This document shows positions 15,661 to 36,912 of a DNA stretch of 37,791 nt, in pieces. The first letter of the stretch is position 1. Each line of letters opens with the position of its first letter. The translations under genes were made by a program, and so were the position numbers. Origin of the DNA: an uncultured Elusimicrobia bacterium (GTDB lineage: Bacteria; Elusimicrobiota; Elusimicrobia; Elusimicrobiales; UBA9959); assembly GCA_903873295.1 (NCBI GenBank), contig CAIQNV010000044.1, forward strand, positions 1 through 37,791. The letters are read 5' to 3'. The notes below the pieces were generated by a model. That model searched no databases and was not told where the DNA came from. It worked only from the letters and a program-made list of their open reading frames with translations.

Positions 15661-15709
15661 CGGCATAAAGCAGGGACATCCGGCGTATGAGGTGCTACTT
15701 AAGGATTAA
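15659..15709 (+). pseudogene. 3' fragment of the 13269 gene left by the duplication
   Basis: The plus strand encodes AGIKQGHPAYEVLLKD and a stop, identical in protein to the end of the gene at 13269-13778. It directly abuts the SEDS fragment through a GCCG microhomology at 15659-15662, the duplication junction. It has no start or upstream part. Confidence 0.9.
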
Positions 15710-21431: not shown

Positions 21432-22460
21432 TTAAGGCTTGAGCTTGTCTTGCGCCCGCGTCTCGCGCCGCGCAGCCGCAGTACTCTTTATACTTTTCAT
21501 GCCATTCAGCGCACTCCTGATCTCGATACGCGCCTCATTAACCTCATGAAGATATGACTTGGTAACCGCATCGAATGTTCTTTTTAACTCCTCAAAGCCA
21601 TCTATTGTTCCCTTTAATTTTACTTCCATATCCCGCAGTCGGTCCTCATACGTCCAGGCCGGCCGGTCTTCTTCTAATTCCACCGGCGACGCTTTGCAGA
21701 CTATCTCGGTCGTTTCGGGATTCACCAAAGCCCGCAGACACCTCACCGCCGGCGACCCCTCTCCGGTTATCAGGCCCCAAACCCGTCCATCCGTGGCCTT
21801 CCGGACAGCGCTGTTGATATCGTCGGTGGCTCTGCCGCAAATGCTTTTGGACCAGAACGGCCCTGACCACTCGTTGGGAGTCCTCAGGCACCAGGTCAGC
21901 ACCTGGGAAGCGGCCCCGCCGCCCACGGAGGTGCATTCATACCTTTCCTTCCCTCTCTGGAGAGTCAGCAAAGTTACGCCCAGGGACCAGTAGACGCGCC
22001 ATTTCTCATTATCATAATCCTCGATAATAGCCTCGCTGATGTTGCGCAGGTAATCCGACTTCTTATCAAGCTCGTCTTTAGAAACGAATTCCACCACATT
22101 AGGCTGGGCCCCGAAGGTGCTTTCCTTCCTGCCTACCACAGTCAGCCCGATTATCCGTATATCCTTCCTGTCTTTAGCTTTATAGAGGTCTTTGGCTATC
22201 CAGGGTCCCTGTATTCGCCCTTTGTTGAAATTCAGTTCATGGTCGAGCAGGACGAGCGCCACACGATTCTCTGTGTCCTTGTTTATGATGTCGTTGTATT
22301 TGGCAAGTGTCTTGACGAACACGAGGTCATATTTGTTTTTAGTGCTGCTGTAAATTTCACGGAGCTTTTGCTCCAGCGTTTGCTTCGAGGCCTCGCCGTA
22401 CGCCTCGTCGTAGTGATCGTCTACGCACAGGATCATTTTAGGTTCATTGTTGGTTTTCAT
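21432..22460 (-). CDS. Receiver-domain protein with unknown C-terminal domain
   Basis: A 342-residue cytoplasmic protein. The N-terminal about 135 residues form a response-regulator receiver with the full residue set: an Asp-Asp pair in LCVDDHYDE, the phospho-acceptor Asp in LVLLDHELNF, Thr in IIGLTVVG and Lys in EFVSKDEL. The remaining about 200 residues are not recognised and end in a helical, coiled-coil-like, basic tail; no helix-turn-helix is evident. I chose the ATG at 22460 (AGGAG 5 nt upstream) over the TTG at 22475. It is last in the five-gene operon starting at 24843 and is a candidate signal-input component for the regulon. Confidence 0.75.
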   Translation of the reverse strand: MKTNNEPKMILCVDDHYDEAYGEASKQTLEQKLREIYSSTKNKYDLVFVKTLAKYNDIINKDTENRVALVLLDHELNFNKGRIQGPWIAKDLYKAKDRKDIRIIGLTVVGRKESTFGAQPNVVEFVSKDELDKKSDYLRNISEAIIEDYDNEKWRVYWSLGVTLLTLQRGKERYECTSVGGGAASQVLTWCLRTPNEWSGPFWSKSICGRATDDINSAVRKATDGRVWGLITGEGSPAVRCLRALVNPETTEIVCKASPVELEEDRPAWTYEDRLRDMEVKLKGTIDGFEELKRTFDAVTKSYLHEVNEARIEIRSALNGMKSIKSTAAARRETRAQDKLKP

Positions 22461-22471
22461 ATGTGCTCCTA

Positions 22472-23140
22472 TCAAGCCCGGCTGTCAGGATTCTTCTCAT
22501 CAAGAAAGTCTTCGCACATGCGCCGCAATCCGAATGCTTTCTCTTTCCATTTCGTCGCGGGCAGCGAGTTGATTCCGGCCTTAAGCTCTTCCGCGTTCTC
22601 TGTTCGGCCTTTTTGTATTAAATAATCGTAGACTTCGTTCAGCCTGCCTAGGATCTCACTCCTGGATAATTTAGTGCCGGGACTATAATGCAGCCTCCTG
22701 AACCGCAGATACTTCTTTTCGTTAGCGTAACAATTGTTTATATACGCCAAGTCCGTTACAGGCTCAAGCTTGAGGAGTAGGCCGTTCAATTCGCCTAGTA
22801 AAAAAGGAATAGTCCTGTAGGCGTGAGAGTAAGCGGCCGGCTCGTCTTCCACCCCGTTAAAGGCGGGCTGTTCCTTCCCGAAATCCTCCATTTTCGGGAA
22901 GCCCAGCACGACAACAGGGTTCTCCCGCTTACGCCTGATCTTCCCCCAGATTATCTGTTCCAGCAGCAATTCATCCTTGACCAGGAGCACCACCGCCACT
23001 TCAGGCGCCAGGCCCGTTGGCATCTGCAAATCATAGGCAGCGGTCATCGGCTTTCTCTTTTGTTCGTGGCCGAATACGGCCAGCGCGCGGGCCAGCGCGG
23101 CCGCTGTTTCAGTATCGTCGGAGATTATTAGTGTTTCCAT
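22472..23140 (-). CDS. Pseudo-receiver-like cytoplasmic protein
   Basis: The 222 residues begin METLIISDDTETAAALARAL, which fits the first strand and helix of a receiver domain, and continue with VAVVLLVKDELLLEQ and NPVVVLGFP strands. The expected phospho-acceptor Asp is missing. The C-terminal about 100 residues are helical and basic and do not show a clear winged-helix signature. The length matches OmpR-type regulators, so a degenerate regulator is possible but unproven. I chose the ATG at 23140; no Shine-Dalgarno is evident. Its stop lies 11 nt before the next receiver gene. Confidence 0.65.
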   Translation of the reverse strand: METLIISDDTETAAALARALAVFGHEQKRKPMTAAYDLQMPTGLAPEVAVVLLVKDELLLEQIIWGKIRRKRENPVVVLGFPKMEDFGKEQPAFNGVEDEPAAYSHAYRTIPFLLGELNGLLLKLEPVTDLAYINNCYANEKKYLRFRRLHYSPGTKLSRSEILGRLNEVYDYLIQKGRTENAEELKAGINSLPATKWKEKAFGLRRMCEDFLDEKNPDSRA

Positions 23141-23223
23141 TTGTAGTTGATACTCAAATATATTAAATAACGCCGGCGGCCACAATCATTATTACTTTGA
23201 GGTTCCTCGCCCCCGCAGGTTCT

Positions 23224-23550
23224 CTATTTGGTGCCCTCCGCGGCCCTCGCCTGGTCGTCCGCCTCGTATACGCCCATGACATTGATGAAGGTATCCTCAG
23301 GCCCGGCCTCGGCGGCGGGTGTTGCGGCAGCAGCCGCGTCCTGCACGGGCGCCGCGGGCACCGTCTCAGCGCTTACTGGCGGCGGAGGCAGGTCCTCGTC
23401 GCTTGCCCCGGGCGCAGCGACAGGCGACGACGCGGCTGGTACTGCCTGCAGCCTGGCGGCCAAAGCCGCCAGCTCAGCCTGACCGGCCGGTGTGCCTATA
23501 TATACCCAGGCCGCGAACACCGCGATAGCGCCTATAATTAATTTAGTCAT
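23224..23550 (-). CDS. Small membrane-anchored protein with conserved C-terminal motif (paralogue 1)
   Basis: A 108-residue protein with one N-terminal hydrophobic helix (LIIGAIAVFAAWVYIG), an Ala/Pro-rich linker and a C-terminal motif AEAGPEDTFINVMGVYEADD. The same motif ends the 129-residue protein at 34352-34741 (AEAGPDDTFERVMDIYDKD). The layout suggests an inner-membrane anchor that presents a short binding peptide. CGGAGG lies just before the ATG. It is third in the operon starting at 24843. Confidence 0.75.
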   Translation of the reverse strand: MTKLIIGAIAVFAAWVYIGTPAGQAELAALAARLQAVPAASSPVAAPGASDEDLPPPPVSAETVPAAPVQDAAAAATPAAEAGPEDTFINVMGVYEADDQARAAEGTK

Positions 23551-23594
23551 AATAGCCTCCGGAGAGTGATATCGACATTATCAGCGCAGCGTCC

Positions 23595-24491
23595 TTATGG
23601 CCTCCCGAATTCGCGAATATCGTCTTCGATAGGCCTTTCCACTGCGACGGCACCGGCCTGGCCGGCCGCGCCGCCGCTCAGCAGCTGTGAGTAGTCCGGG
23701 CCAGGAGTGAAGAGCTGGTCGGAGCCGCCCTTTGCCCCACCGCTGATCTGGGGCAGAACCAGTTCTATAGTGTGTTTTAATATAGCGCCGGTGTTCATAG
23801 CGTCCTTTATATCCGTCTCGATGAGGGCCAGGTCGACAAGGCCGTTAACTTCTTCCATATACCCAAGCAGCCCTTCTATACTGGCGGTCGCCCCTTCCAG
23901 CTTCTTTCCGGCTTCCTGCAGGTGCTTTTCCATACCCTGCTTGCGCTTAAGCTGGTCGATATAGGAGCCGAACTGCTTCCTCTGTTCCGGGGTGAGCCCC
24001 AGCCTGGCCGCGTCGGCCAAAGCCCCCGCCGTCTCAGCCTGCCGAGCGAGATCCTTCGCCATAGCCGCTTTCGTTCCTTCCAGCTGGGCCTGCGCGCCGG
24101 CCAGCTGCCCGGGCCCGACCAGGGCTAAGGCCGCCATCGCTTTGGAAGAATGCTCTTTATAAGCCTTTAGCTGAACTTTCTGACTCCGTGAAATATTCCG
24201 GAGCTCTACGAGATTCTTGGCCCTCTTGATTTCTTTTTTAGAATAGGGCAGGTCGGTGAAATCCTGTGAGTAAAATTCTGCGAAAATCTCGTTTTCGCGT
24301 TTCCGGGAGGACAGGTAATCTCCGTAAATCTTCCCGGCGGTCTTCGTGTGCAGCGCCACCGCGGTCATAGGCGGCAGCTCCACGCTGCTGTCGACCGTGC
24401 TCGCGAACAGCGCGGGGGCCGGGAGCAGCGCGGGGGCCGGGAGCAGTAAGAACACGGCGAAAATGAGCTGGAAGATTTCTTTATTTTTCAT
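23595..24491 (-). CDS. Secreted helical protein (paralogue of the 32161 gene product)
   Basis: A 298-residue exported protein of unknown function. The signal peptide contains an 18-bp in-frame tandem repeat (24408-24443) giving LLPAPALLPAPA. After cleavage comes the segment SSVELPPMTAVALHTKTAGK, then DYLSSRKRENEIFAEF, shared with the 226-residue protein at 32161-32841. The rest is mostly alpha-helical, rich in Ala, Lys and Gln (about 80-250), with a Gly-rich tail. It starts 4 nt after the lipoprotein gene and is second in that operon. Confidence 0.75.
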   Translation of the reverse strand: MKNKEIFQLIFAVFLLLPAPALLPAPALFASTVDSSVELPPMTAVALHTKTAGKIYGDYLSSRKRENEIFAEFYSQDFTDLPYSKKEIKRAKNLVELRNISRSQKVQLKAYKEHSSKAMAALALVGPGQLAGAQAQLEGTKAAMAKDLARQAETAGALADAARLGLTPEQRKQFGSYIDQLKRKQGMEKHLQEAGKKLEGATASIEGLLGYMEEVNGLVDLALIETDIKDAMNTGAILKHTIELVLPQISGGAKGGSDQLFTPGPDYSQLLSGGAAGQAGAVAVERPIEDDIREFGRP

Positions 24492-24495
24492 AAGA

Positions 24496-24843
24496 TTACC
24501 TCTTCAAGAGCGACTTCGTTATTTCCGAATCGGCGCACGCGCCTTCCAGAATGTCGCTCCTCCCCTCTGAAAGGGCGAGCGGGCACAAAGTGAGTTTCAC
24601 TAAAGCGGCAGATTTTTTGTCGGGGCTTTTGCCCGTAAGGTCGAGGAGTCCGTCGAGCACAGCGTTGCGCGCGTCCGCCGTGCCGGCTGTCACGTAGTCG
24701 CCCTTGAGCTGCTTGTAAGTGCTGGCCCAGCGCGGCCCGCCCAGGCGGTTATCTGCGAGGTTGCGATGGCCGGCGCAGCCGCCGAAGAATACCAGCGCAG
24801 TCAGCATCAGACAAGTTTCGGTTATGGTGGTCAGGGTTTTCAT
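24496..24843 (-). CDS. Small lipoprotein (paralogue 1)
   Basis: A 115-residue lipoprotein with a type II signal peptide and lipobox FFGGC-AG, so Cys22 or a near neighbour is the lipidated residue. The mature part is conserved with the protein at 35020-35370: AGTADARNAVLDG, LSEGRSDILEGACADSEITK and SLLKR. It contains two further cysteines (LTLCPLAL, EGACADS) that could pair. No known family is recognised. It is the first gene of a five-gene operon behind the array at 24868-24923. Confidence 0.82.
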   Translation of the reverse strand: MKTLTTITETCLMLTALVFFGGCAGHRNLADNRLGGPRWASTYKQLKGDYVTAGTADARNAVLDGLLDLTGKSPDKKSAALVKLTLCPLALSEGRSDILEGACADSEITKSLLKR

Positions 24844-24867
24844 GATTTTTTTTATCCTCTCTTTCGT

Positions 24868-24923
24868 ATAGTCTACATCCGCCCCTTCTGATAAAGTATC
24901 GTCTATTTATACTTTTGTTATAC
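24868..24923 (-). promoter_or_regulatory. Triple 11-bp-phased activator array plus -10 (lipoprotein 1 operon)
   Basis: The -10-like box GTAGACTAT is at 24876-24868. Upstream sites are CGATACTT (24901-24894, 17 bp), GTATAAAT (24912-24905, 28 bp) and GTATAACA (24923-24916, 39 bp). The box is 24 bp from the ATG, the shortest leader in the set. Confidence 0.78.
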
Positions 24924-24945
24924 CCTCCTGCCGCCGCTATAAGAG

Positions 24946-26022
24946 CTACTTGAGGGCGTAATACGCCTGTTTCCGGTTGTGCTCCGCCGCGCTGTAGCCT
25001 GGCTCCAGCTTGATGGCTTTGTCATAGTCCGCGATAGCCCTGGCGTATTCCCCGAGTCTGCTGTACGCGAACCCGCGGTTGTTGTAAGCACGCGCCTCGC
25101 TGGGGTTAAGTTCTATAGCTTTGGTACAGTCCGCAATCGCCTTGTCGTATTTCTTCAGGTTGTTGTACACAAACCCGCGCGTGCTGTAGGGCGCGTCCAC
25201 CAGCGGATTAAGCTTTATGGATTTAGAAAGATTCTTTATAGCTTTGGAATGCTTATTGAGACCGCTGTAGGAAGCCCCCCGATTGTTATAGGCGGCGGCA
25301 TTGTCCGGATCCAACTCTATAGCTTTAGAGGAGTCCTCGATAGCCTTCTTGTACTGCTTAAGGCCGTTATACGCCGACCCGCGGTTGTTGTAGGCGTCGC
25401 TGGATTCCGGGTCCAGCTCTATGACTTTGTTGTAGTCCTCCAGCGCCTTCTCATTTTCGCCAAGGTATTTATACGCGTACCCCCGGCCATTATAGGCGCC
25501 GGCGGCTTTCGGGTCCAGCTCTATAGCTTTGGAACAATCCGCTATCGCCTTCCCGTACTGCTTCAGCTTGTTATACGCATAGCCGCGGCTGATGAAGGCG
25601 GTGACGTCGTTCGGGTTAAGTTCCAGGACTTTGTCATAGTCCTCTATCGCCTTCTCGTACTGCCTGAGATTATTATGGGCGTACCCGCGGTTGTGGTAGG
25701 GGGCGGCCGCCTTCACATCGGGCGCTATCTCCGAGTCAGTCACGAATACTATGGGAACCCCGCGCATGACCGAAAGGACTTCGATCACTATGGCAAAGGG
25801 ACCGCGGAGCCGCGACGGCTGCAGGACGTTTTTCTTGGTCATACACTGCACCACAGGATACAAAGCCGCGCCCAGCTGCTTTTTCTGCGCCTCCCCGCCA
25901 GTCTGCACTGCGTCGACGTACAGAGCGGCTATCGGTTCAGGCGCGCCGCAGGCGGTGAAGGGTTCGGCGCTCACCGTTATTGCCGCCGAGGTCAGGATCA
26001 GTATCGCCAGTATGTTTTTCAT
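24946..26022 (-). CDS. Secreted TPR-repeat protein (paralogue 2)
   Basis: A 358-residue paralogue of the TPR protein at 18662. A signal peptide (MKNILAILILTSAAITVSAE) leads to the same Cys-containing N-terminal domain (SRLRGPFAIVIEVLSVMRGV) and then seven to eight TPRs. I chose the ATG at 26022, which has CGGAG upstream; the open frame to 26166 would place 48 charged residues before the signal peptide and run through the promoter. It is monocistronic, in contrast to paralogue 1, which leads an operon. Confidence 0.9.
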   Translation of the reverse strand: MKNILAILILTSAAITVSAEPFTACGAPEPIAALYVDAVQTGGEAQKKQLGAALYPVVQCMTKKNVLQPSRLRGPFAIVIEVLSVMRGVPIVFVTDSEIAPDVKAAAPYHNRGYAHNNLRQYEKAIEDYDKVLELNPNDVTAFISRGYAYNKLKQYGKAIADCSKAIELDPKAAGAYNGRGYAYKYLGENEKALEDYNKVIELDPESSDAYNNRGSAYNGLKQYKKAIEDSSKAIELDPDNAAAYNNRGASYSGLNKHSKAIKNLSKSIKLNPLVDAPYSTRGFVYNNLKKYDKAIADCTKAIELNPSEARAYNNRGFAYSRLGEYARAIADYDKAIKLEPGYSAAEHNRKQAYYALK

Positions 26023-26064
26023 AAGTTTTCTCCGTCTCTCCGTCCGCTCTCTGCTCCGTCGTCT

Positions 26065-26120
26065 ATAGTCTACCTGACCCGCCTCCGATCTTCTATTCCT
26101 TAACCCTCCGATAAGTATCC
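26065..26120 (-). promoter_or_regulatory. Triple 11-bp-phased activator array plus -10 (TPR paralogue 2)
   Basis: The -10-like box GTAGACTAT is at 26073-26065. Sites are GAATAGAA (26098-26091, 17 bp), GGAGGGTT (26109-26102, 28 bp) and GGATACTT (26120-26113, 39 bp). The box is 42 bp from the ATG at 26022. Confidence 0.78.
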
Positions 26121-26208
26121 CTTCTCCGGCCGGTTTCTTTTTGTTTTGTAGCCAGCATATGCTCATTTACCCGTCTCTCGCGCCCAGGGCGCTTCTCGCC
26201 GCTTAACT

Positions 26209-26421
26209 TCACCGCATCTTCACACACAGCGCAAACTCGTCAGTCCACTCCAGCGGGAAGATCAGGGGAGACTCGGCTTCCAGTATCTTTTTGTATTGCT
26301 CCTTATTTATCCTGATCAGCGTGAAAGGCTCTCCCGGGATATCCGCGCTGTCTCCGATTCTATCCGCCTCGAGCAGAACGGCCTTTATAGCAGCCTTAAG
26401 TTGCGGGGTGAAAGTTATCAT
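26209..26421 (-). CDS. Small hypothetical protein
   Basis: A 70-residue cytoplasmic protein, not recognised. It is acidic and well ordered in composition (helical start ITFTPQLKAAIKAVLLEA, then GEPFTLIRINKEQYKKILEA). A strong AAGGAGG ribosome site precedes the ATG, and it has its own regulon-type promoter at 26470-26525, which supports a real gene. A GCGCCC-A-GGGCGC hairpin (26180-26192) lies downstream. Confidence 0.7.
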   Translation of the reverse strand: MITFTPQLKAAIKAVLLEADRIGDSADIPGEPFTLIRINKEQYKKILEAESPLIFPLEWTDEFALCVKMR

Positions 26422-26469
26422 ACTTTTGCCTCCTTGCTGGATTTTCTTCTCTTTCTGTTCTTCATAAAT

Positions 26470-26525
26470 ATAGTTTAGTGCAGAACCCCGTGAGTTACTA
26501 TCCGACGAATATACCGAAAGTCTCC
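26470..26525 (-). promoter_or_regulatory. Triple 11-bp-phased activator array plus -10 (70-residue gene)
   Basis: The -10-like box CTAAACTAT is at 26478-26470. Sites are GGATAGTA (26503-26496, 17 bp), GTATATTC (26514-26507, 28 bp) and GGAGACTT (26525-26518, 39 bp). The box is 48 bp from the ATG at 26421. Confidence 0.78.
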
Positions 26526-26574
26526 TATGCCTTAAGTTTATATACTCTAATTAGCGACTGACTCAGGAGACCCT

Positions 26575-27174
26575 ATGAACAAAATCAGAATAAGCGCGGC
26601 GACCCTGACCAGGATAGAACTGGACGGAAAGATCCTGGTAGCCCTTAACAACAAAAGATTTAAGGCCGGAATAAAAATATATACCCCCTTTGGCGGAGCG
26701 CTGGAATTCCATGAGCAGGCAAAGCCATTCCTTGAAAGTTTGCACGCTGTTTTTGAAAACGGCAACGATCTCAGATTAACTATAGCCGAGGATAAGCTGC
26801 CGGTATTCGAAGAATGGTTTAACCAGAAGAAGGACAGAGAAACTTCCCCCTACAGAGAATTGCAGGAGGAACTTGTAGATGAAGAAAAAGTGTTTTCTGC
26901 TCTACCCGAGAACGAAATTACGCTTGAATATATAGCGGGGAAATCAGAAAGAGCAGTGAGCGACAGGCCCGGCCAGGCCGGCGCGCTAACCCAGAGATAT
27001 TTTGAAGTGTTTAAAGCAAAACTCTGCCCCGCCTACGAACAGACACTTAAACTGGCCTTAGCGCTACCCGACACCCACCTGGCGCTGGTCACAGAGCAGG
27101 AAATCCTGGCCGGGAAGTCTGCATCCGGGATTGAAATAGGATCGAATTGCATACCGCTTATCTGTAAGGAATAA
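26575..27174 (+). CDS. Nudix-like protein with a split Nudix box
   Basis: A 199-residue cytoplasmic protein. YTPFGGALEFHE followed about 45 residues later by YRELQEELVDEE resembles the two halves of a Nudix box (GG-x-x-E and RE-x-x-EE), separated by an insertion. Nudix enzymes hydrolyse nucleoside diphosphates linked to another group; the insertion makes activity uncertain. A CAGGAG ribosome site precedes the ATG. It is one of only two complete plus-strand genes in the accessory island and has no GGATA array on its strand. A TATACT box at 26541-26546 could serve as its -10. Confidence 0.6.
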   Translation: MNKIRISAATLTRIELDGKILVALNNKRFKAGIKIYTPFGGALEFHEQAKPFLESLHAVFENGNDLRLTIAEDKLPVFEEWFNQKKDRETSPYRELQEELVDEEKVFSALPENEITLEYIAGKSERAVSDRPGQAGALTQRYFEVFKAKLCPAYEQTLKLALALPDTHLALVTEQEILAGKSASGIEIGSNCIPLICKE

Positions 27175-27238
27175 GCAATAGAGTCGCTCCTTTGCAGGTA
27201 AGCCTCCGTGAGAATGGCGGTAAAACCTCAATATCCGT

Positions 27239-28585
27239 TTATCTCTTCCTTCCTACATAGCCTCCCCAGTCCCAATCATCGATCGTGTCGAGCGTGCCGT
27301 ACCGGTGCCCTAAGTGAATCGCTCCGTACGCTTTTATCCCGAAGATGTTTCCCTTAGTGTCTATCATGTACTTGCCCGAACTTCCTATGTCGACCTTCGT
27401 GTACTTTTTTCCGTTTTTTATTCTCGTTGTCGCATCTTTAATATTAGCGTCACATCCATGTCCTTCTGCTCTTAGCTGCGCTATCGTCTGCTCCTGCACC
27501 ATCTTCGCGAAACGTTCTATTTTCTCCTTCATGCAGCCCCCCTGATTCTCAACATGACGATCCGCTGCCCGCCTGTGCCGCAGGAATTCTATGGCGCCCT
27601 GTAAGTCCTGAACGTTTAACCAGCCGCCCGGATGAGCCAGGTCTTTTAAATCGCGGTCCGCATGGACAAGCAGGCTGGTGAACCCTACATAGCCTGTCAT
27701 CCACTCCGGCAAAGGGTCGCTCCCGCGCCTGGCTCCGAACCCGGCCACTTCGTGAAAGCTGTCGCTGATAAAGGCGACCTCTCCTGGTTCAAAAGGCATT
27801 TTAAGCGCCTGCCTCAGCCGTTCAAGAAAGTCAGGGTGCGGTTTCTCCTGGTGGACATCTACCGAGCTGATCATAATAATATCGTCCGCTATCCCTGCAG
27901 GGCGAAGAAGTTGCCTTAAAGCCTCTCCATCTTTGCCCGCATCGCTCATAATAACTAAAGGCCAACCACTCGAGCGCCCGAACGAGATTAATCCCTGGGC
28001 TTCCAAAGAAATATCACGAGGCATCGAGGCGAATTCACGCATGATATCCCTCAAGGCCTTTAGCCCCTCTTGTGAGCAGGTCGCCAGGGCTTGACGGGCA
28101 AAAGCCTCGATGGCCGCCCCGCTGTCGCCTTTACCGATGAAGAGGCCGCCATTAATGTTCTCCCGCCAGGCTGCCTTCCACTCGTCATCACCGACCACCG
28201 CCACGCCTTGTTTTTCCAGCCGTGTTCGAATACCGCGCATACCGAGGCCGCCCTCCTGTTCTACCTGCGTAACCAGGCAGGCAAGCGACGACTGCAACTG
28301 CGTGTATTCTTTCCGTTCCGATCCCGGCATCAGACTCGCTACCATTTTGTCTAGCGCCGCCCGGAGCAGCAACGGGTCGACACATTTTATGCCGCGCGCG
28401 TAGAGCGGCCGCACTTCACGTTTCCAAATATCCCAGAACGCGGGGTAAGCGGGTTGCTTGCTCCCGGCTGGCATCTTACGGCACCACTCCTGGAATGTCT
28501 GCTCGAGCCGGGGTGTCCCGTCCATCCACCTGTCCAATACCCCGCCAATGTCCAGTGCTAAAATTTTTATGCGGTGCTCATTCAT
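27239..28585 (-). CDS. HAD-like hydrolase fused to a small phage-like C-terminal domain
   Basis: A 448-residue protein in two parts. Residues about 6-340 are HAD-like: motif I ALDIGGVLD (nucleophile Asp12, with the second Asp replaced by Gly as in other DxGGV subfamilies), motif II VIMSDAG, motif III Lys in EKPHPDF and motif IV FISDSFHE. Residues 352-448 form a separate domain with KVDIGSSGKYMIDTKGNIFG and YGTLDTIDDWDWGGY, resembling small proteins I recall from phages. A Met at 352 (27532) follows a G-rich stretch and could start the domain separately. I chose the ATG at 28585 (GGAAGGGGG upstream). It is 77 nt downstream of the 28663 gene. Confidence 0.75.
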   Translation of the reverse strand: MNEHRIKILALDIGGVLDRWMDGTPRLEQTFQEWCRKMPAGSKQPAYPAFWDIWKREVRPLYARGIKCVDPLLLRAALDKMVASLMPGSERKEYTQLQSSLACLVTQVEQEGGLGMRGIRTRLEKQGVAVVGDDEWKAAWRENINGGLFIGKGDSGAAIEAFARQALATCSQEGLKALRDIMREFASMPRDISLEAQGLISFGRSSGWPLVIMSDAGKDGEALRQLLRPAGIADDIIMISSVDVHQEKPHPDFLERLRQALKMPFEPGEVAFISDSFHEVAGFGARRGSDPLPEWMTGYVGFTSLLVHADRDLKDLAHPGGWLNVQDLQGAIEFLRHRRAADRHVENQGGCMKEKIERFAKMVQEQTIAQLRAEGHGCDANIKDATTRIKNGKKYTKVDIGSSGKYMIDTKGNIFGIKAYGAIHLGHRYGTLDTIDDWDWGGYVGRKR

Positions 28586-28662
28586 AATCACATCCCCCTT
28601 CCTATCGATGCATTCCTCTTCTCTATAAACAGAACGCTTACACTTCTCCCCTCTCCTCTGAT

Positions 28663-29010
28663 TTATCCGTGGCCGCAACTGAGTCTTCGGTGGCCAGCTT
28701 TACTTTCTGCTTTGCCGGCGCTCAGCTGCTTCGTCTGCGTTTGTGACCAGGCCGTGCATACAGAGCTTATCCTCGCACAGCGCCAGTCCCTCCGTTGCTT
28801 TACCCGCGCCTCCGCAGACACGGCCTGTTGGTATTCCAGCGCTATTTTTTCCGAATATCCTTTCCACGCTTTTTGCCAGCTTTCTTGCCGCTCTTTCTGC
28901 CAAGCTATGGCCTGCTCGCGGCCGAGCAGGCTCTCCATCAGCATCTGTTGATATATCCTGCGCCGCAGTTCGTGGTCCTCGCTGTCAGTCCATTCGGTTC
29001 TGTTGCTCAT
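28663..29010 (-). CDS. Small charged hypothetical protein, possible frameshift
   Basis: A 115-residue protein starting MSNRTEWTDSEDHELRRRIY, helical and rich in Gln, Glu, Arg and Trp; function unknown. An AAGGAGG ribosome site and a regulon promoter support the start. The last about 45 residues (SSVCTAWSQTQTKQLSAGKA) look unlike protein. The neighbouring frame over the same bases (stop at 28700) reads EDKLCMHGLVTNADEAAERR, which looks more natural. A +1/-1 shift near residue 75 could therefore be a real frameshift or a sequencing error. Confidence 0.55.
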   Translation of the reverse strand: MSNRTEWTDSEDHELRRRIYQQMLMESLLGREQAIAWQKERQESWQKAWKGYSEKIALEYQQAVSAEARVKQRRDWRCARISSVCTAWSQTQTKQLSAGKAESKAGHRRLSCGHG

Positions 29011-29037
29011 ACCACGATCCTCCTTGCTCTCTCGAGT

Positions 29038-29093
29038 ATAGTATACCTGCCCGAATTCATAACAGCTATCCGTAAGGAATACCATAAGTATCC
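29038..29093 (-). promoter_or_regulatory. Triple 11-bp-phased activator array plus -10 (28663/HAD unit)
   Basis: The -10-like box GTATACTAT is at 29046-29038. Sites are GGATAGCT (29071-29064, 17 bp), GTATTCCT (29082-29075, 28 bp) and GGATACTT (29093-29086, 39 bp). The box is 27 bp from the ATG at 29010. Confidence 0.8.
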
Positions 29094-29115
29094 CGGACTC
29101 ACTGGGCCCGTCATA

Positions 29116-30477
29116 TTACACCTTCCACTGGAAGGTCCCCCACCACCAGGTTGCGGCCGACGCGCCGCGCCGGCCGAAGAGGACCGCTCGCGGGCGCAGG
29201 GACTTCTGCCGGGCTACTTTCTGCATTTCGGGCGAAAGCGAAGACTCGCCGTCCGTAAAGACCACAAAATCCTGGCAGCGCTGTTTGAGGGCGTGAGCGA
29301 ACACGCAGTCAAAGTCCGTCCCTCCGCCATAGAACAGGTGACTGTTGATCGCCTCCACTGCGGGTAGTGGATTAACATAGGTATTGAAAGTCCATAAGGT
29401 AACCGGGAGCAAGTCCCGCAACCCCTTGATCAGGTCCACCACCACCCCGAGATGGGAACCCATGCTGCCGGACACATCCAGATAGATCCCCAAAGGCCGG
29501 CACGGCAGCGGCTCCTTGTTGTGGTGGTAGACCAGGTTCGGCCAGCCACAGGCCTGCCGCATCAGTTCGGCCCGGGTAGGACGGAGCAGGTACGGGAGCC
29601 TCAAAGAGTCGTTTAACAAATTCCCGGCAACCTGCGTGAGACACATGGACTGCCTGTCCCGGCTTTCCTGCCGGCTCAGCCAGTCTTTAAGAGAGGCCTT
29701 CCTGGAAGCAGCCTGCTCCTGGGGTTTAATCAACGCCTGTGCCAGCCAGGTATCCGCTCCAGCCCCTTTGCCTCCCGTGCCCGCGCCGGCGCTCAACTCC
29801 TCGCGCAGCGGCTCCGGCAAAGGCAGCATGTCGCCCGGGTCCGGCAGTTCATGCGGCCATAAACTTTCAGTACCATAATCGCCCATAGCTATGATGCGCT
29901 GCTCCCCCTGCGATTCCGAAATATTATTGAACAGTGGGAATATATGCTGATAGCAAGCCTCGGGCGAAGGCGGAACCTGCGACCGCCAGATCTGCCGCCA
30001 CGCCTTTACATGGCTTTCCGGCATCCTCTTGAGCGGCGGGTCAGCCATTACCAGCAAAGGCAGGCTTTTTAATTCTGAGAGCGTGCCTTCTCCTGGCAGG
30101 TCCGCGAGCATAAGGCGCTTATTCAATTCGTGCAGGAAAGGACCGCAGGTCCCCTTCGCCAGGATCCATTCCAAAGAAATATCGAAAGCAAGGTTCACCG
30201 CTTCCTTATGCGGATAGAAACGGAGATGGTGCAGCTGATTGTAGCCGAGGTGATGGTAGAGCTCGTGCATGATAAGGGCTTTTAACTGCGGCTCAGGCAG
30301 CTCCTCGCACAGGCCGCGGTTGACGTGTATCTCCACGGTACGCCGGGTCTCATTATAAACCCAGCAGGCGGTAGAAAAGGAATCGCTGCAGCGCAGCAGG
30401 ATACCCGCGAAAATAGCGTCCAGCCCCAGCGAGGCCGCCACCTGCTGCAAGCGTCTCCAGGGAGTACCAGGCGCCAT
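29116..30477 (-). CDS. Metallopeptidase-VWA protein (DUF2201-like)
   Basis: A 453-residue cytoplasmic protein in two parts. The N-terminal domain has a zinc-protease motif HELYHH (His71, Glu72, His75). The C-terminal domain (about 325-453) is von Willebrand A-like with a complete MIDAS: DVSGS (334-338), Thr387 in GGGTDFD and Asp409 in FTDGE. This matches the DUF2201 putative-metallopeptidase/VWA family, whose members usually sit beside a MoxR-type AAA ATPase. None is seen here; the partner is a HEAT-like protein gene ending 1 nt upstream. I chose the ATG at 30477 because GGAGG lies 6 nt before it. Confidence 0.85.
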   Translation of the reverse strand: MAPGTPWRRLQQVAASLGLDAIFAGILLRCSDSFSTACWVYNETRRTVEIHVNRGLCEELPEPQLKALIMHELYHHLGYNQLHHLRFYPHKEAVNLAFDISLEWILAKGTCGPFLHELNKRLMLADLPGEGTLSELKSLPLLVMADPPLKRMPESHVKAWRQIWRSQVPPSPEACYQHIFPLFNNISESQGEQRIIAMGDYGTESLWPHELPDPGDMLPLPEPLREELSAGAGTGGKGAGADTWLAQALIKPQEQAASRKASLKDWLSRQESRDRQSMCLTQVAGNLLNDSLRLPYLLRPTRAELMRQACGWPNLVYHHNKEPLPCRPLGIYLDVSGSMGSHLGVVVDLIKGLRDLLPVTLWTFNTYVNPLPAVEAINSHLFYGGGTDFDCVFAHALKQRCQDFVVFTDGESSLSPEMQKVARQKSLRPRAVLFGRRGASAATWWWGTFQWKV

Positions 30478-30478
30478 A

Positions 30479-32164
30479 TCAGACCTCCGCCAGCCCCTGC
30501 CGGAGGAACGGCAAGGCACTGGCAGGGAGCTCTACCGCAAAGGCTTCCGCTAAAGAGAACGGCGCGGAACGGGAGAGATCGGAATCCGGCCTCTCTGTTT
30601 TAGTCCTGGCCACGAACCAGTGCGGCCCCCCTTTGCGTTTAGTGGTATCGCTGCACACCTGCTCGAGCCAGGGCAGAAGCGGCGCGAAGTCAGCGGCCGC
30701 CATGGGCTTCATAAAAAACAGGAAGCGCAGGCTGATCTCCGAAGTACGGCAGATCACCAGCACAGTAGGCGCAGGCGCTGCCGCTTTACCCTCGCGAGGC
30801 AGCTCGGCCAGCAGATATTCCTTTTTCAACGCCTGCCTCAAGGCCTTCTCCATTACCGGAGTTATCTGGCCGTCGTACGCCTGCTGTATTTTCTCAAGAC
30901 GCAGGGCCGGCGGCGGCAGCAGTTCCTCGCGCCACTCCGCGAAAGCCTCGAGCATTTTCGATTGCGACGCGTTCTTCAGCCACACCTCTGCCAGGCCCGC
31001 GAGTTCCGGATCCCCTGGCGCGGCCTTTACCGCGTCTACCATACTGTTAGCGGCGTCACCGCAGGTAAGTAGTTTATCTATCTCTTCCCGTGAGAGTTTG
31101 AATTCCGCGCGGCGCTCGAAGATCTTCCCTGTTAAAGCCCCCGGCTCGCAGCAGGACCCGTTATGCCGGCGCGGCCACGCATGCTTCTTCAATAAAGACA
31201 CGAGCTCCGGCTTAAGCCTGGCGGGGAAAGCATATTTGCTTGTTTCGAACAGCACCTCGTGCAGCTCGTAATACCACCTCTCATAGGGCCCGGGCCCCGG
31301 ACTATTCTCGCCGGCAAGGCACTTAACAAGCGCCTCCAGGAACGCTTTCTCTTTGTCTTCACCGGCCGCTTCCAGCACAGGCCAAAGCGGTTCCCAAACC
31401 TCAGCGCTATGCTGCTTCTCGACCCAGGCCGGCATCTTGAGACAAAAATAATCGGCTAATTCCCGGGCTGTGCTTCCGAGCTGAAGCAAACCGTCAAGAA
31501 GCATGCGAAAAGTGTACACATTGCAGATATTGATCAGGTAGGGCAGCAGGCGCTGCGCCGCCTGCCGTTTATTGAATTTCTGAGCGCGGCAGATCCGGAG
31601 GCACATTTCGGCAGCCGCCTGGCTTCCCTGCTTCAGTTCACAGCAGAGATTATTCCAATCCAGGTTCGGAGCCGCGCTCCTGAGCTGTAGCAGGGCGAAA
31701 TTGGAATAAAAGTTGAGAACTCCCTGGCGAAGCAGTTGCACCCATAACTCGGTTCCCTGAAGCGCGGCCTGCACGAGCCGAAGGAAATCGTCATCCGCGT
31801 AAGTGACCGAAGCTAAGAATGCCGAAACCTCCTTATTGTTCAGTAAGCCTCCCGGCGCTATGTTCATACGGCCCAGAGATTTAACGGCGGCCTGCCGCAC
31901 TTCCACATCAGCTGTATTCACTGCCTTCAGTATGGCGCAAGCTGCCCGGGGATCGTTCGGCTCGAGATGTTTTCCTATTACCTTTAGCATTCTCACCTTG
32001 TTCTCATTATGGTATTGATAATAGTTTATACCGAACATTGCCACGACCGTATCTATAACACCTGCATTTTCCGCCCGGTCCAGAACCTCAAGAAACAGCA
32101 AGGCACTTACTTCCTTGAGGTGATCATGCCCCTGCAGGCAGGCGAGCGCTTCATCCTTAGTCAT
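30479..32164 (-). CDS. HEAT-repeat-like helical protein
   Basis: The 561 residues are almost entirely alpha-helical. HEAT-like units are clearest near residues 70-110 (CAILKAVNTADVEVRQAAVK followed by SLGRMN). No catalytic motif is evident. Its ATG overlaps the stop of the 32161 gene (ATGA) and its stop lies 1 nt before the metallopeptidase-VWA start, so it probably forms a complex with that protein. It occupies the place usually held by a MoxR ATPase in DUF2201 operons; whether it replaces that role is speculation. Confidence 0.65.
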   Translation of the reverse strand: MTKDEALACLQGHDHLKEVSALLFLEVLDRAENAGVIDTVVAMFGINYYQYHNENKVRMLKVIGKHLEPNDPRAACAILKAVNTADVEVRQAAVKSLGRMNIAPGGLLNNKEVSAFLASVTYADDDFLRLVQAALQGTELWVQLLRQGVLNFYSNFALLQLRSAAPNLDWNNLCCELKQGSQAAAEMCLRICRAQKFNKRQAAQRLLPYLINICNVYTFRMLLDGLLQLGSTARELADYFCLKMPAWVEKQHSAEVWEPLWPVLEAAGEDKEKAFLEALVKCLAGENSPGPGPYERWYYELHEVLFETSKYAFPARLKPELVSLLKKHAWPRRHNGSCCEPGALTGKIFERRAEFKLSREEIDKLLTCGDAANSMVDAVKAAPGDPELAGLAEVWLKNASQSKMLEAFAEWREELLPPPALRLEKIQQAYDGQITPVMEKALRQALKKEYLLAELPREGKAAAPAPTVLVICRTSEISLRFLFFMKPMAAADFAPLLPWLEQVCSDTTKRKGGPHWFVARTKTERPDSDLSRSAPFSLAEAFAVELPASALPFLRQGLAEV

Positions 32165-32841
32165 GATTTCCCCCAGAGTTCCTGTCCCGGCGTCCATTGC
32201 TCGGTTTGCGCAGCTGTGTCCCGCAGGCTCTTGGCCAGGTTCTTGCGTGTAGTGGCCCGCTGCCTGGGTTTACCCTCGGTCGAGGTTATAAGCGTCTCGA
32301 GGCGGCTTTTCAGCATCTCTATCTCCAGCTCCGGGCGCACCTGCGGCAGCCGCGCGCAGACCTCCCACAGCCTGGCCGGAAGAGCCAGATCGTCAGACCC
32401 CATCGCGTCGCCCATAAGTCTGCGCACTTTAGCGTCCAGCTGAGGCCCGTATTCAGCCAGCAGGCCGGGCGTGCTCAGCAGGCCCTCCAGGCAACTGATG
32501 CGCCGTTCCAGGTCGCCGCTGTCCAGCCCCGATAGCGCGTCGAAATGCAGCTCTGTAAGCTCAGCGAAGATCTCGGCTTCGCGTCTCCTGAGAGCTAAGT
32601 AATCCGCGAAGTCTTTACCCGCCGTCTTGGTGGCCTGCAACGCGAGGGTCATCGGCGGGAGAGTCGTGCTGCTGTCGTATTCCGCCGCCCTGAGAGTCAG
32701 CGGGGGCGTGCGCTGCGAGCTGCTGCCGTCTTCCGCCGCACTAAGCGACCGCGCCAGCGGCAGGGCCAGCGGCACGGACAGCGACAGTGTCAGTGACAGC
32801 GAAACCATCGCGGAGAAAATGTTTTTAATTGTGTTTTTCAT
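32161..32841 (-). CDS. Secreted protein (paralogue of the 23595 gene product)
   Basis: A 226-residue exported protein of unknown function. The signal peptide (about 1-35) is rich in Ser and Leu. A mature N-terminal segment, SSTTLPPMTLALQATKTAGK then DYLALRRREAEIFAEL, matches the protein at 23595-24491; the C-terminal helical parts differ. It is first in a coupled three-gene operon with the HEAT-like and metallopeptidase-VWA genes, an odd pairing of an exported with two apparently cytoplasmic proteins. Confidence 0.75.
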   Translation of the reverse strand: MKNTIKNIFSAMVSLSLTLSLSVPLALPLARSLSAAEDGSSSQRTPPLTLRAAEYDSSTTLPPMTLALQATKTAGKDFADYLALRRREAEIFAELTELHFDALSGLDSGDLERRISCLEGLLSTPGLLAEYGPQLDAKVRRLMGDAMGSDDLALPARLWEVCARLPQVRPELEIEMLKSRLETLITSTEGKPRQRATTRKNLAKSLRDTAAQTEQWTPGQELWGKS

Positions 32842-32885
32842 AAAAGTTCCTGTCCGTGTCCTTTAGTTTTTGATCCTGTCTGAGA

Positions 32886-32941
32886 ATAGTCTATATCGCC
32901 GCCTCTTTAAAAACTATCTTTTAGATATCCGGTACTTATCC
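32886..32941 (-). promoter_or_regulatory. Triple 11-bp-phased activator array plus -10 (HEAT/VWA operon)
   Basis: The -10-like box ATAGACTAT is at 32894-32886. All three sites are good: AGATAGTT (32919-32912, 17 bp), GGATATCT (32930-32923, 28 bp) and GGATAAGT (32941-32934, 39 bp). The box is 44 bp from the ATG at 32841. Confidence 0.82.
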
Positions 32942-32959
32942 GCTCACGCCGGGCGCCCT

Positions 32960-33613
32960 TTATCTTGTCTGCCTTTTGCCCAGCGAGTTATGTATTTTAA
33001 CCACACTTTTCACATAGGAAATAAGTTTCGGCGGCAGCGGTTCGGATGCGTTCACATATTTATTCAGCGTACCGCGCCCGCCGTTATAAAGGCTTAGAAT
33101 AAGATGTTCACGCTGGTAGCCCATACGGGCCGCATAGGCCATGTCTTTTTGTGTCAGAGAAGCATAGCTGTCTCTGATATACATAGCCGCCGCCTCCAGA
33201 TTATTTTCAGGCAGCCAGGGATTTCCGCCAATTTTCCCGCTTCTCCTCATAAGGTCCCAGGTGGACGGAAGGATTTGCCCGAGGGAAAATTCCCCGGCCG
33301 CCCCCAGGCAACCTATTTTAAAACCGGATTCATGCCAAATAATAGATTCGAGAAGTCTTGGCGAGATGTTATATTTAAGCGCCTTGCGATAGGCCAGCGC
33401 GCGCAGTTGTTCCAGATTATAATCAGGCAGTATTTTCCTGACAGGCAGCCGTATAGCCGCTGCCTTCTCCGGGATACTATAGCCGAGAATCTCCCGGTAC
33501 CCGCCGGCGTCGGCCTCGGCATACACGTCAAGCGCGCTCCTTTCAGCCCGCGCCGCAAGCGGCAGCAGGAGAATAAAGAGCAGCGCAGTCGGGCAGCACT
33601 GGTTACGTGTCAT
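32960..33613 (-). CDS. Lytic transglycosylase (SLT domain)
   Basis: A 217-residue exported enzyme that cleaves peptidoglycan between MurNAc and GlcNAc. After the signal peptide (about 1-23) comes a short module ALDVYAEADAGGYRE, shared with the M23 protein at 36175. The SLT domain follows with catalytic Glu95 in IIWHESGFKIG, then GEFSLGQILPSTWD, and LILSLYNGGRGTLNKYV near the end. Its ATG overlaps the stop of the 33610 gene (ATGA), so the two are coupled. Length is compact for the family. Confidence 0.9.
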   Translation of the reverse strand: MTRNQCCPTALLFILLLPLAARAERSALDVYAEADAGGYREILGYSIPEKAAAIRLPVRKILPDYNLEQLRALAYRKALKYNISPRLLESIIWHESGFKIGCLGAAGEFSLGQILPSTWDLMRRSGKIGGNPWLPENNLEAAAMYIRDSYASLTQKDMAYAARMGYQREHLILSLYNGGRGTLNKYVNASEPLPPKLISYVKSVVKIHNSLGKRQTR

Positions 33614-34326
33614 GGCAATTCGCCCCCCGATTTAAAAATAGATTCACTCACCAAAACCCGCTTCTTTCCCTGCTTAGACACGGTATTATTTTTTGCCGCC
33701 TGCGGCGCGCGCAGGGCGTCGCCTGCCGCCGCCAGTTCAGCCAGAAACACGCTGCGATCCAGCTCTTTCAATAAGTTAGTAAGCGTGCCCCTCGATGCAC
33801 GCACTGCGGCATACGCGTCGGCTGCGGCGTCCTGGGTCGGGTTCACAGAATAGAAGAGGGCACCCATCTTAGAGATGTCCTCGAATTTAGACGCCGGCAG
33901 AGTAAGCGCCGTCTCCAGAGCCAAGACCTTCCCCCATTTTATAAGCCCCCTGTTATTCAGATATTCCTCTACGCGGCTCATTTCAGCTAGGGCCGTGTCC
34001 GGACCGGGCATCTCGCTTTCAGCCAGGTTTAATATCCCCTCCACATCTTTGCGGAGCGTTATAAGCGCGCGCTGTTCTTCGGCCAGGTATCTGACAAAAA
34101 CTGCCAGAAGCACTTCCCTCCGGGCGGCATTTTTGAGAGACGTCTCTGATATCACCAGAAAGACGCCGGACTCGGTATTAGAGGAAAGCTCTATATAATT
34201 TTCTATAGACTTGCTGAACGCGGCCGTGGCCGCGCCGAAACCGCTTTCGGTTTTCTGGTCCCCGGCAAAACCGCTTAAGGGGAAGAGGCAGGTGAGGGTC
34301 ATGAAGCCGATAATAATTTTTTTCAT
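33610..34326 (-). CDS. Secreted helical hypothetical protein
   Basis: A 238-residue exported protein, not recognised. The signal peptide MKKIIIGFMTLTCLFPLSGF ends near AGDQK. The mature protein is alpha-helical without cysteines. I chose the ATG at 34326 (TGGAG upstream) rather than the one four codons earlier. It is coupled by ATGA to the lytic transglycosylase gene, which suggests a role with that enzyme, and it follows the 34352 gene by 25 nt. Confidence 0.72.
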   Translation of the reverse strand: MKKIIIGFMTLTCLFPLSGFAGDQKTESGFGAATAAFSKSIENYIELSSNTESGVFLVISETSLKNAARREVLLAVFVRYLAEEQRALITLRKDVEGILNLAESEMPGPDTALAEMSRVEEYLNNRGLIKWGKVLALETALTLPASKFEDISKMGALFYSVNPTQDAAADAYAAVRASRGTLTNLLKELDRSVFLAELAAAGDALRAPQAAKNNTVSKQGKKRVLVSESIFKSGGELP

Positions 34327-34351
34327 AATAATCTCCATATATACCGAACAT

Positions 34352-34741
34352 TTATCCCGGCTGGTTATAGCGCTGGGCTCTCTCGCGGTCCTGCTCTTTC
34401 ATGTCTTTATCATAAATATCCATAACGCGCTCAAAGGTGTCGTCAGGCCCGGCTTCGGCCGCGACGGGCGGCGGCTCTTCTTTGGGCGCCGCAAGATCCG
34501 CTTCGCTGTTTAAGGGCGGCGCGGGGAGTTCCTCCTCGCTGAGCTTCGGCAAAGCGGTGGAAGCGACGACTGCCGGAGCTGTCTGCAGTAAAGAGATACA
34601 GGACTTAAACGTAGCTTTACACCACGGGGAATTAATAAAGATCACCGCGCTTAGGAGCGTTATAACAACTAGAACCAATCTGGCCAGGACTACCTCCAGT
34701 ATGATCTTTCCAATTACTCCGAAGATACCATTAAGTGACAT
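34352..34741 (-). CDS. Small membrane-anchored protein with conserved C-terminal motif (paralogue 2)
   Basis: A 129-residue protein with one long N-terminal hydrophobic segment (about 8-37), a Pro/Ala/Glu-rich linker and the C-terminal motif AEAGPDDTFERVMDIYDKD, shared with the 108-residue protein at 23224. AGGAGG precedes the ATG. It is first in an operon with the 33610 gene and the lytic transglycosylase gene, behind the array at 34775-34830. Confidence 0.75.
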   Translation of the reverse strand: MSLNGIFGVIGKIILEVVLARLVLVVITLLSAVIFINSPWCKATFKSCISLLQTAPAVVASTALPKLSEEELPAPPLNSEADLAAPKEEPPPVAAEAGPDDTFERVMDIYDKDMKEQDRERAQRYNQPG

Positions 34742-35015
34742 AATAACCTCCTGGACGATTTACTCCCGACGCTGATAGTCTACACTCTACACTTGAAACA
34801 AAGTATCCTGAAAACAACCCGGGATTATACCTGCCGCGCATGACCACCTGAATCTTAAGGCTTTGCATATTGGTTAAGTTGCTCCTCTTTAACTCCGCAG
34901 AATTGACAAGGCTAATCTTCCGCGATACGCCGCTTTGAGTGCCGATATTAAGCGCAGACGACAGGGACTGGAAGACCACGACTAAAGTGACCCGCGAGAT
35001 TTCTTTGCTTACCAT
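34731..35015 (-). CDS. Doubtful small ORF spanning a promoter
   Basis: A 94-codon frame beginning MVSKEISRVTLVVVFQSLSS with AGAGG upstream, 4 nt after the lipoprotein gene. The first about 60 residues could be a real small protein. The rest runs through the promoter array at 34775-34830 and overlaps the next start codon, so it may be a decayed gene that has been overwritten by the promoter. No family is recognised. Confidence 0.35.
   Translation of the reverse strand: MVSKEISRVTLVVVFQSLSSALNIGTQSGVSRKISLVNSAELKRSNLTNMQSLKIQVVMRGRYNPGLFSGYFVSSVECRLSASGVNRPGGYYVT
34775..34830 (-). promoter_or_regulatory. Triple 11-bp-phased activator array plus -10 (transglycosylase operon)
   Basis: The -10-like box GTAGACTAT is at 34783-34775. 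Sites are GGATACTT (34808-34801, 17 bp), GGTTGTTT (34819-34812, 28 bp) and GTATAATC (34830-34823, 39 bp). The box is 33 bp from the ATG at 34741. Confidence 0.8.
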
Positions 35016-35019
35016 TAAG

Positions 35020-35370
35020 TCACCTCTTAAGTAGCGCCATAGTGATTTCCGAATCCGCGCAAATTCCTTCCACGAGGTCTACCCTGCCTTCTGCAAGCGC
35101 CGCGGGGCAGAGCATTTTTTTAACTAGGTCGGCAGAGGCTTTGTTCGGACTTCTGGCCGCTAAGTCACTGTATCCTTCCAGCGCGGCGTTGCGCTCGGCC
35201 GCCGTGCCGGCCGTGGCATAGTCGTTATTCAACTGCTTGAACGAGTTGGCATAATGTGGTCCGTCCAGACTGTTATTTACAATGTTACTGTGACCGGCAC
35301 AGCCGCTGCCGAACACCAGCACCGGCAGTATCAGGACGATCTGTGAAATTTTTTTAATGATAGTTTCCAT
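35020..35370 (-). CDS. Small lipoprotein (paralogue 2)
   Basis: A 116-residue lipoprotein with lipobox FGSGC-AG near residue 24. It is collinear with the lipoprotein at 24496-24843; shared segments include SFKQLNNDYATAGTAAERNA, LAEGRVDLVEGICADSEIT and ALLKR, and the two mature cysteines are kept. GGGAGG precedes the ATG. Unlike paralogue 1, it is followed by the doubtful 34731 frame and a new promoter rather than by the paralogous secreted gene. Confidence 0.82.
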   Translation of the reverse strand: METIIKKISQIVLILPVLVFGSGCAGHSNIVNNSLDGPHYANSFKQLNNDYATAGTAAERNAALEGYSDLAARSPNKASADLVKKMLCPAALAEGRVDLVEGICADSEITMALLKR

Positions 35371-35419: not shown

Positions 35420-35475
35420 ATAGTCTACACTGCAAAGCCCGATTGTTCTATGTTCAAACTATCATGAAACTCTCC
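35420..35475 (-). promoter_or_regulatory. Triple 11-bp-phased activator array plus -10 (lipoprotein 2)
   Basis: The -10-like box GTAGACTAT is at 35428-35420. Sites are weaker: ACATAGAA (35453-35446, 17 bp), TGATAGTT (35464-35457, 28 bp) and GGAGAGTT (35475-35468, 39 bp). The two upstream sites overlap the last codons of the 35462 gene. The box is 49 bp from the ATG at 35370. Confidence 0.68.
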
Positions 35476-36174: not shown

Positions 36175-36912
36175 CTAATAACTGCCTGTCATCTTGGCTA
36201 AAGGATTAACTGATTCTCCCGATGGCGAGATTATTTCAAAATGCAGATGAGGGCCGGTGGACATGCCGGTGGACCCGACACGCCCCAACATGTTTTTGGA
36301 TTTCTCTATTGTCTTACCGATTCTAACCGACACTGCGGACAAGTGGCCGTAGCGAGTAAGAGAACCGTCGTAGTGGCGCATCTCAACTGTATACCCATAA
36401 CCGCCCTTCCAACCTGCAAACGTGACTATGCCCGGTTTGGCTGAATAGACTGGCGTACCGTAGGGCATGGGAATATCGCACCCATTATGAAAGATCATCC
36501 GCTTCAACAGCGGGTGGTAGCGCATACCAAAGCTGGAACTGATCCTGGAATAATTCAGCAACGGCATGCGGTAGGCGTCCTGGCTCCGGTAGCCCGCCGA
36601 CTGTTTTTCCCGATAGTCATTGTTAAATTTGTGGAGTGTGTGTGTAGGGATAGTCACCCGTTTTATAACAATTTTCTTTATGGGTGTTATTTGCCGCGCG
36701 TACACCTCCGCAGGAGAAGCTTCACGATAGGCGGCTTCATCTGCTGCGTATATATCCAAGGCCGTAATATCGTCTCCCCGGCACTGAGCAGGCGACACTA
36801 GAAGCCCGGAGACAGCGACAAAGGCTACTATACACAGCATGCCCCGCCCGGCCGATAATCTAGCCTTAATGACCGCCGGTGCGCCGTGCTTTATCGTTAT
36901 GCGCTTCTTCAT
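36175..36912 (-). CDS. M23 (LytM-type) peptidoglycan endopeptidase
   Basis: A 245-residue exported zinc endopeptidase that cuts peptidoglycan cross-bridges. A long signal segment (about 1-45, ending AQCRG) is followed by ALDIYAADEAAYRE, a module shared with the lytic transglycosylase at 32960. The M23 domain (about 120-245) has its zinc ligands in HNGCD (His142, Asp146) and HLH (His222, His224), plus His190 in RYGHLS. All are intact, so it is probably active. It is monocistronic behind the array at 36954-37009. Confidence 0.92.
   Translation of the reverse strand: MKKRITIKHGAPAVIKARLSAGRGMLCIVAFVAVSGLLVSPAQCRGDDITALDIYAADEAAYREASPAEVYARQITPIKKIVIKRVTIPTHTLHKFNNDYREKQSAGYRSQDAYRMPLLNYSRISSSFGMRYHPLLKRMIFHNGCDIPMPYGTPVYSAKPGIVTFAGWKGGYGYTVEMRHYDGSLTRYGHLSAVSVRIGKTIEKSKNMLGRVGSTGMSTGPHLHFEIISPSGESVNPLAKMTGSY

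Follow-up and report, generated by a model that had tools for sequence, protein, structure and literature searches.

A duplicated set of putative lipoprotein, exported-protein, and membrane-anchor genes in an Elusimicrobia genome

An Elusimicrobia genome carries two related sets of genes, each with a putative lipoprotein (lip), an exported protein (exp), and an N-terminally anchored protein (anc). Their sequences point to one block duplication of a lip-exp-anc unit, followed by loss of the middle gene, exp, from the second set. The trio is most likely a lineage-restricted, duplicated envelope module. We put at about 40% the probability that the unit encodes an envelope assembly whose parts act together and which now exists in two specialized versions.

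The source assembly has 3,490,803 bases in 157 contigs and is 89.9% complete. The window, by which we mean the whole 37,791-base stretch of DNA that was analyzed, is one of these contigs (C44). Set 1 is lip1-exp1-anc1, running from 24843 down to 23224, and set 2 is lip2, anc2, and exp2, running from 35370 down to 32161. All six ORFs were intact on the minus strand, where the original prediction had placed them (Table 1). All six proteins have a hydrophobic segment at the N terminus.

Table 1. Genes, gene remnant, and promoter-like sites of the two sets
Feature	Coordinates	Strand	Basis
lip1, putative lipoprotein, 115 aa	24496..24843	(-)	ORF; 57% identical to lip2; helical model
exp1, exported protein, 298 aa; residues 24-81 in common with exp2	23595..24491	(-)	ORF; Z 16; N-terminal hydrophobic segment
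anc1, N-terminal anchor, Pro/Ala-rich middle, AEAGPEDTF tail, 108 aa	23224..23550	(-)	ORF; Z 25 with anc2
lip2, putative lipoprotein, 116 aa	35020..35370	(-)	ORF; similarity to lip1
exp 5'-end remnant at start of ORF 34731-35015	34921..35015	(-)	DNA alignment; about 95 bases
anc2, N-terminal anchor, AEAGPDDTF tail, 129 aa	34352..34741	(-)	ORF; pair comparison
exp2, exported protein, 226 aa; residues 46-103 in common with exp1	32161..32841	(-)	ORF; pair comparison
Two-box promoter-like site before lip1	24868..24900	(-)	Pattern search
GTAGACTAT box, 49 bases before lip2; upstream GATASTTT box unmatched	35420..35428	(-)	Pattern search
Two-box promoter-like site before anc2	34775..34807	(-)	Pattern search
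Two-box promoter-like site before exp2	32886..32918	(-)	Pattern search

Relatedness and duplication of the two sets

The members of each family had been proposed to be pairwise related. We compared each pair by Smith-Waterman alignment against 1,000 shuffles, none of which scored as high in any of the three pairs, and by BLASTP among the 39 window proteins. The lipoproteins at 24496 and 35020 were related over their whole length, with 57% identity, a score of 329 (Z = 62), and a BLASTP E value of 4e-46. The anchors at 23224 and 34352, which had been linked through a shared AEAGPxDTF motif, were also related (score of 167, Z = 25; E = 3e-16). Their strongest match was the tail, AEAGPxDTFxxVMxxY (Z = 13.7), and the N-terminal part matched more weakly (Z = 4.5, with 1 of 2,000 shuffles as high). 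For the exported proteins at 23595 and 32161, the claim held over one 58-residue module only (score of 129, Z = 16; E = 3e-12), whereas their C-terminal parts were unrelated and scored as shuffles do (30, against a shuffle mean of 31.2). Because the likeness is confined to this module, exp2 may share a module with exp1 rather than be its second copy.

Three other resemblances were considered and dropped. The neighboring exported protein encoded at 33610 was unrelated to exp1 and exp2 (Z values of 0.7 and 0.9). Four comparisons of lip with the N-terminal part of the tetratricopeptide repeat (TPR) proteins gave Z values of -0.9 to 0.4, and four comparisons of the anchor tail with the N termini of the SLT and M23 proteins gave Z values of 0.0 to 2.0.

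At the DNA level, a single alignment of set 1 with set 2 ran from upstream of lip, past the lip stop codon, to near position 34921. The same alignment paired the first bases of exp1 with the start of the ORF at 34731-35015. This stretch aligned alone scored 49, against a shuffle mean of 18.3 (standard deviation, 2.6), and 0 of 500 shuffles scored as high; 44 of its first 66 bases were identical to exp1, followed by 6 of 33. Since a remnant of exp follows lip2, set 2 was once ordered lip-exp-anc like set 1.

We also estimated divergence within each pair. dS was 1.07 (0.68 to 1.85) for lip, 1.49 (0.78 to 4.00) for exp, and 1.39 (0.83 to 4.00) for anc, with 4.00 being the ceiling set in the calculation. 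These similar values, with overlapping ranges, fit a single duplication event for the trio and are no proof of one, because dS is near saturation and one event is then indistinguishable from several. dN/dS was 0.28 (0.15 to 0.47) for lip, 0.30 (0.10 to 0.66) for exp, and 0.38 (0.14 to 0.67) for anc. With values of about 0.3 to 0.4, both sets have most likely been kept under purifying selection.

Promoter-like sites

Set 1 had been described as a compact operon and set 2 as spread over three promoters, and the positions of TAGACTAT bore this out. Of the trio sets, set 1 has a single copy, preceding lip1, and set 2 has three (35420-35427, 34775-34782, and 32886-32893). The window as a whole holds six sites, against 0.55 expected. 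Five of them precede lip1, lip2, anc2, exp2, and the TPR protein gene at 24946, at distances of 24 to 49 bases from the start codon, and the other one overlaps the peptidase gene at 13768 at its start. Before lip1, anc2, and exp2, [GA]TAGACTAT is accompanied by a GATA[CG]TTT box 16 bases upstream; for lip2 and the TPR gene 24946, only the -10 half is present. In the 3.49-Mb assembly, this two-box pattern had three exact matches, each preceding one of the three families (lip1, exp2, and anc2). Allowing one mismatch added no site, and allowing two added one; a reversed control had none. This genome count is partly circular, because the pattern was derived from the same three sites. In simulated upstream stretches, a shared upstream box arose in 1 of 10,000 runs, for a box length picked after the sites had been seen.

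In the best alignment of set 1 with set 2, the TAGACTAT of lip2 is paired with TAGACGAT, about 29 bases upstream of the lip1 box, and not with the lip1 box itself. Therefore, the lip promoters may have arisen separately. Also, GTAGACTAT alone is not private to the trio, having 28 sites in the genome compared with 10 for the reversed control. Of the 24 sites lying outside the window, we read 5 as standing before likely genes, including recA, a pilin gene, and genes for exported proteins, so the -10 half may be a general promoter.

Possible joint action and competing explanations

The original prediction took the joint expansion of the three families as a sign that their products act together. 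The expansion itself stood, with lip, the exp remnant, and anc in the same order as in set 1; joint action became only likelier. It is likelier because similar promoters precede each family after the breakup of set 2 and because the genes appear to be under purifying selection.

The history that we propose begins with duplication of the lip-exp-anc unit, after which the middle gene of set 2 was lost except for about 95 bases. The anchor gene of set 2 now has a promoter-like site of its own, and a protein with the exp module (exp2) is encoded 1.5 kb downstream of anc2, behind a putative site of the same kind. The sequences support these steps. Beyond them, we infer that the three products would be made together and bind each other, lip as a small helical lipoprotein, exp as a secreted and likewise helical protein, and anc as a membrane-anchored one with a short conserved tail. 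The contacts would be the conserved parts, namely, the 58-residue exp module, the AEAGPxDTF tail, and the lip fold, and the exp C terminus, which differs between the sets, would determine the particular task of each. In that case, we would be looking at two specialized versions that perhaps act alongside the transglycosylase (32960) and the M23 peptidase (36175) encoded next to set 2. Going by neighborhood only, these two enzymes make a cell-wall role possible. The position of exp2 outside the lip2-anc2 run counts against a joint assembly, and so does the restriction of the exp likeness to 58 residues. It is very improbable that the trio is the fullest version of this proposal, a previously undescribed three-part envelope complex in two specialized versions, with its own promoter class, that directs local cell-wall remodeling with the adjacent transglycosylase and M23 peptidase. 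Its parts would be the lipoprotein, a secreted adaptor whose head is modular, and a membrane anchor with a tail.

A serious competitor, to which we give less than an even chance, is that these are weakly selected, lineage-specific genes of a variable region that were duplicated together as neighbors and whose products do not interact. In 12 relatives, we compared stretches of 8 to 40 kb adjoining the atp operon. All 12 had atpB and the regulator at 8286, and 10 had the aminotransferase at 11890, with the remaining two contigs ending after about 8 kb. None of the window genes right of 13,050 had a match above 45 bits in these stretches. The G+C content of the window drops from 0.602 to 0.535 right of 13 kb. 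By this comparison, the area right of 13 kb is a variable, genome-specific region. The lack of a counterpart beside the atp operon of the 12 relatives, the presence of the trio families in this genome only, and the decay of the set 2 exp copy all favor the idea of noninteracting neighbors. So does the duplication of unrelated genes nearby. All-versus-all BLASTP of the 39 window proteins recovered the trio pairs, related ATP synthase subunits, a TPR pair (18662 and 24946; 68% identical; dS of 3.14 [1.67 to 4.00]), and a peptidase pair (13768 and 15699; 85% identical; dS of 0.27 [0.21 to 0.33]). The TPR pair may be older than the trio duplication and the peptidase pair is younger, so the area was duplicated more than once. 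Because these unrelated neighbors were duplicated too, the fact of joint duplication says little by itself about joint function. However, dN/dS is below 1 in all three trio pairs, with upper bounds of 0.47 to 0.67, and the same two-box pattern precedes all three families.

The exported pair raises a different alternative, that exp1 and exp2 have a sorting or docking module in common but are unrelated elsewhere, and that only lip and anc were truly duplicated. The likeness does stop at about residue 81 of exp1, beyond which the pair scores at shuffle level. However, the exp remnant after lip2 indicates that a lip-exp unit was duplicated, which makes a relocated copy a natural source of exp2, and we consider the module explanation somewhat unlikely. 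A further possibility, which we consider improbable, is that a mobile element or a decayed prophage carried the trio, for instance as envelope or lysis functions accompanying the SLT and M23 enzymes: the lower G+C content, the genome-specific gene content, an SLT protein matching phage lysis and tail families, and a weak PhageMetallopep match of protein 29116, below the cutoff, would suit this origin, but pattern-seeded scans of viral contigs found no relative of any of the three families, tblastn with lip1 found none in phages or plasmids, the six proteins had only two PHROGs matches (E = 0.063 and 0.085), and the Pfam families listed for the 20 window proteins that were scanned include no integrase.

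A jointly acting envelope assembly is the reading we carry forward, tentatively. The trio is a clear, dissectable, lineage-restricted set, duplicated as a block, with one member lost from the operon and a similar promoter still before each family. If the products interact, it would illustrate the origin and diversification of new envelope assemblies inside a single lineage. Two of its short conserved parts, the 58-residue module and the nine-residue tail, can be tested directly.

Distribution, similarity to known proteins, and neighboring genes

In profile searches, credible members of lip and of the exp module were each found in 1 of 340 phylum genomes, and credible members of anc were found in 1 of 61 genomes; in every case, this was the present genome. 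Two other matches were dropped by reading, not by a test. A lip match in G049 (E = 5.8e-4) fell on a different protein, in its signal peptide and Cys region, and an anc match in G029 (E = 0.003) was an Ala/Lys-rich stretch of another exported protein. Pattern-seeded scans for lip and exp in genome contigs found nothing.

None of the six proteins reaches the cutoff of any Pfam or NCBIfam family. The best Pfam E value among them, DUF3987 for exp1 (0.0013), came with 18.4 bits against a cutoff of 27, and we took it as chance in a helical protein. PF08278 for exp2 had a Pfam E value of only 0.033, and NCBIfam panB for exp1 (E = 0.023) was far below its cutoff. The most suggestive Pfam match of exp1, also below the cutoff, was the LTXXQ family of Spy/CpxP (PF07813; E = 0.013). 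Like Spy/CpxP, exp1 is exported and predicted to be helical, and it has an LTPEQ sequence. However, it scored 16.7 bits against a gathering cutoff of 24.3, and exp2 had no match. Spy/CpxP proteins act as periplasmic chaperones and are not known to have partners like lip or anc. The predicted model of exp1 is helical but poor (mean pLDDT of 45.4).

The lip proteins have a conserved Cys (residue 23 or 24) after a hydrophobic stretch, with F and G at the -3 position. F or G at -3 is outside the classical lipobox rule, and the lipoprotein label is tentative. Three cysteines are common to lip1 and lip2, and a disulfide may join the last two (residues 87 and 103 of lip1). A predicted model of lip1, built from two sequences, has helices at residues 37-52, 56-71, and 76-93 with high confidence (block means of 85 to 95 over residues 41 to 100). 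This short helix series resembles TPR and other helical-hairpin repeats (Fis1, PgaA-TPR, and the designed DHR14), with VIA-align Z values of up to 8.7 over 73 residues, although the matches included many unrelated helical structures and such values are common among helical bundles and prove nothing. Unlike TPR proteins, lip1 and lip2 matched no Pfam family at E values up to 1 and hence showed no TPR sequence repeat in that search. A Foldseek search with the lip1 model gave no match at E = 0.001 or better, an absence that in itself shows nothing.

We matched no known system to the trio, and a literature search with limited wording returned nothing relevant to it, from which we claim no absence from print. 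Lineage-restricted, locally duplicated clusters of exported orphan proteins are a general kind of gene set. The trio is like them in its small exported proteins, lack of detected relatives, local duplication, and location in a variable region. It is unlike them in that the broken set 2 has the rare two-box pattern before two families, just as the intact set 1 has it before the operon.

Several neighboring genes deserve mention. The stretch at 21432-23140 encodes two proteins, side by side, that on visual inspection resemble degenerate response-regulator receivers, with no Pfam match at the cutoff. A lone SMODS-associated NUDIX domain protein (26575-27174; Pfam E = 1.4e-22) is encoded on the strand opposite to its neighbors, and it matches the PADLOC 2TM effector and RT-associated NUDIX models. 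We dropped a defense reading of the area; among the 10 proteins given to PADLOC, only this one had matches. The HEAT protein at 30479 was found in this genome only among 61, apart from a partial match (4.5e-4) in G049. The N-terminal domain of the TPR proteins (18662-19762 and 24946-26022) was found in no other of the 61 genomes, and the gene at 24946 lies immediately upstream of lip1 and shares its -10 box. The tandem peptidase genes (13768-17522) encode what we take to be oligopeptidase-like enzymes, and the 15699 gene had one match each in 18 of the 22 other genus genomes searched, at 51 to 53% identity. Finally, the transglycosylase (32960-33613) and the M23 peptidase (36175-36912) have a common N-terminal stretch, ALDxYA...YRE (Z = 6.5, with 0 of 2,000 shuffles as high; BLASTP E = 0.025).
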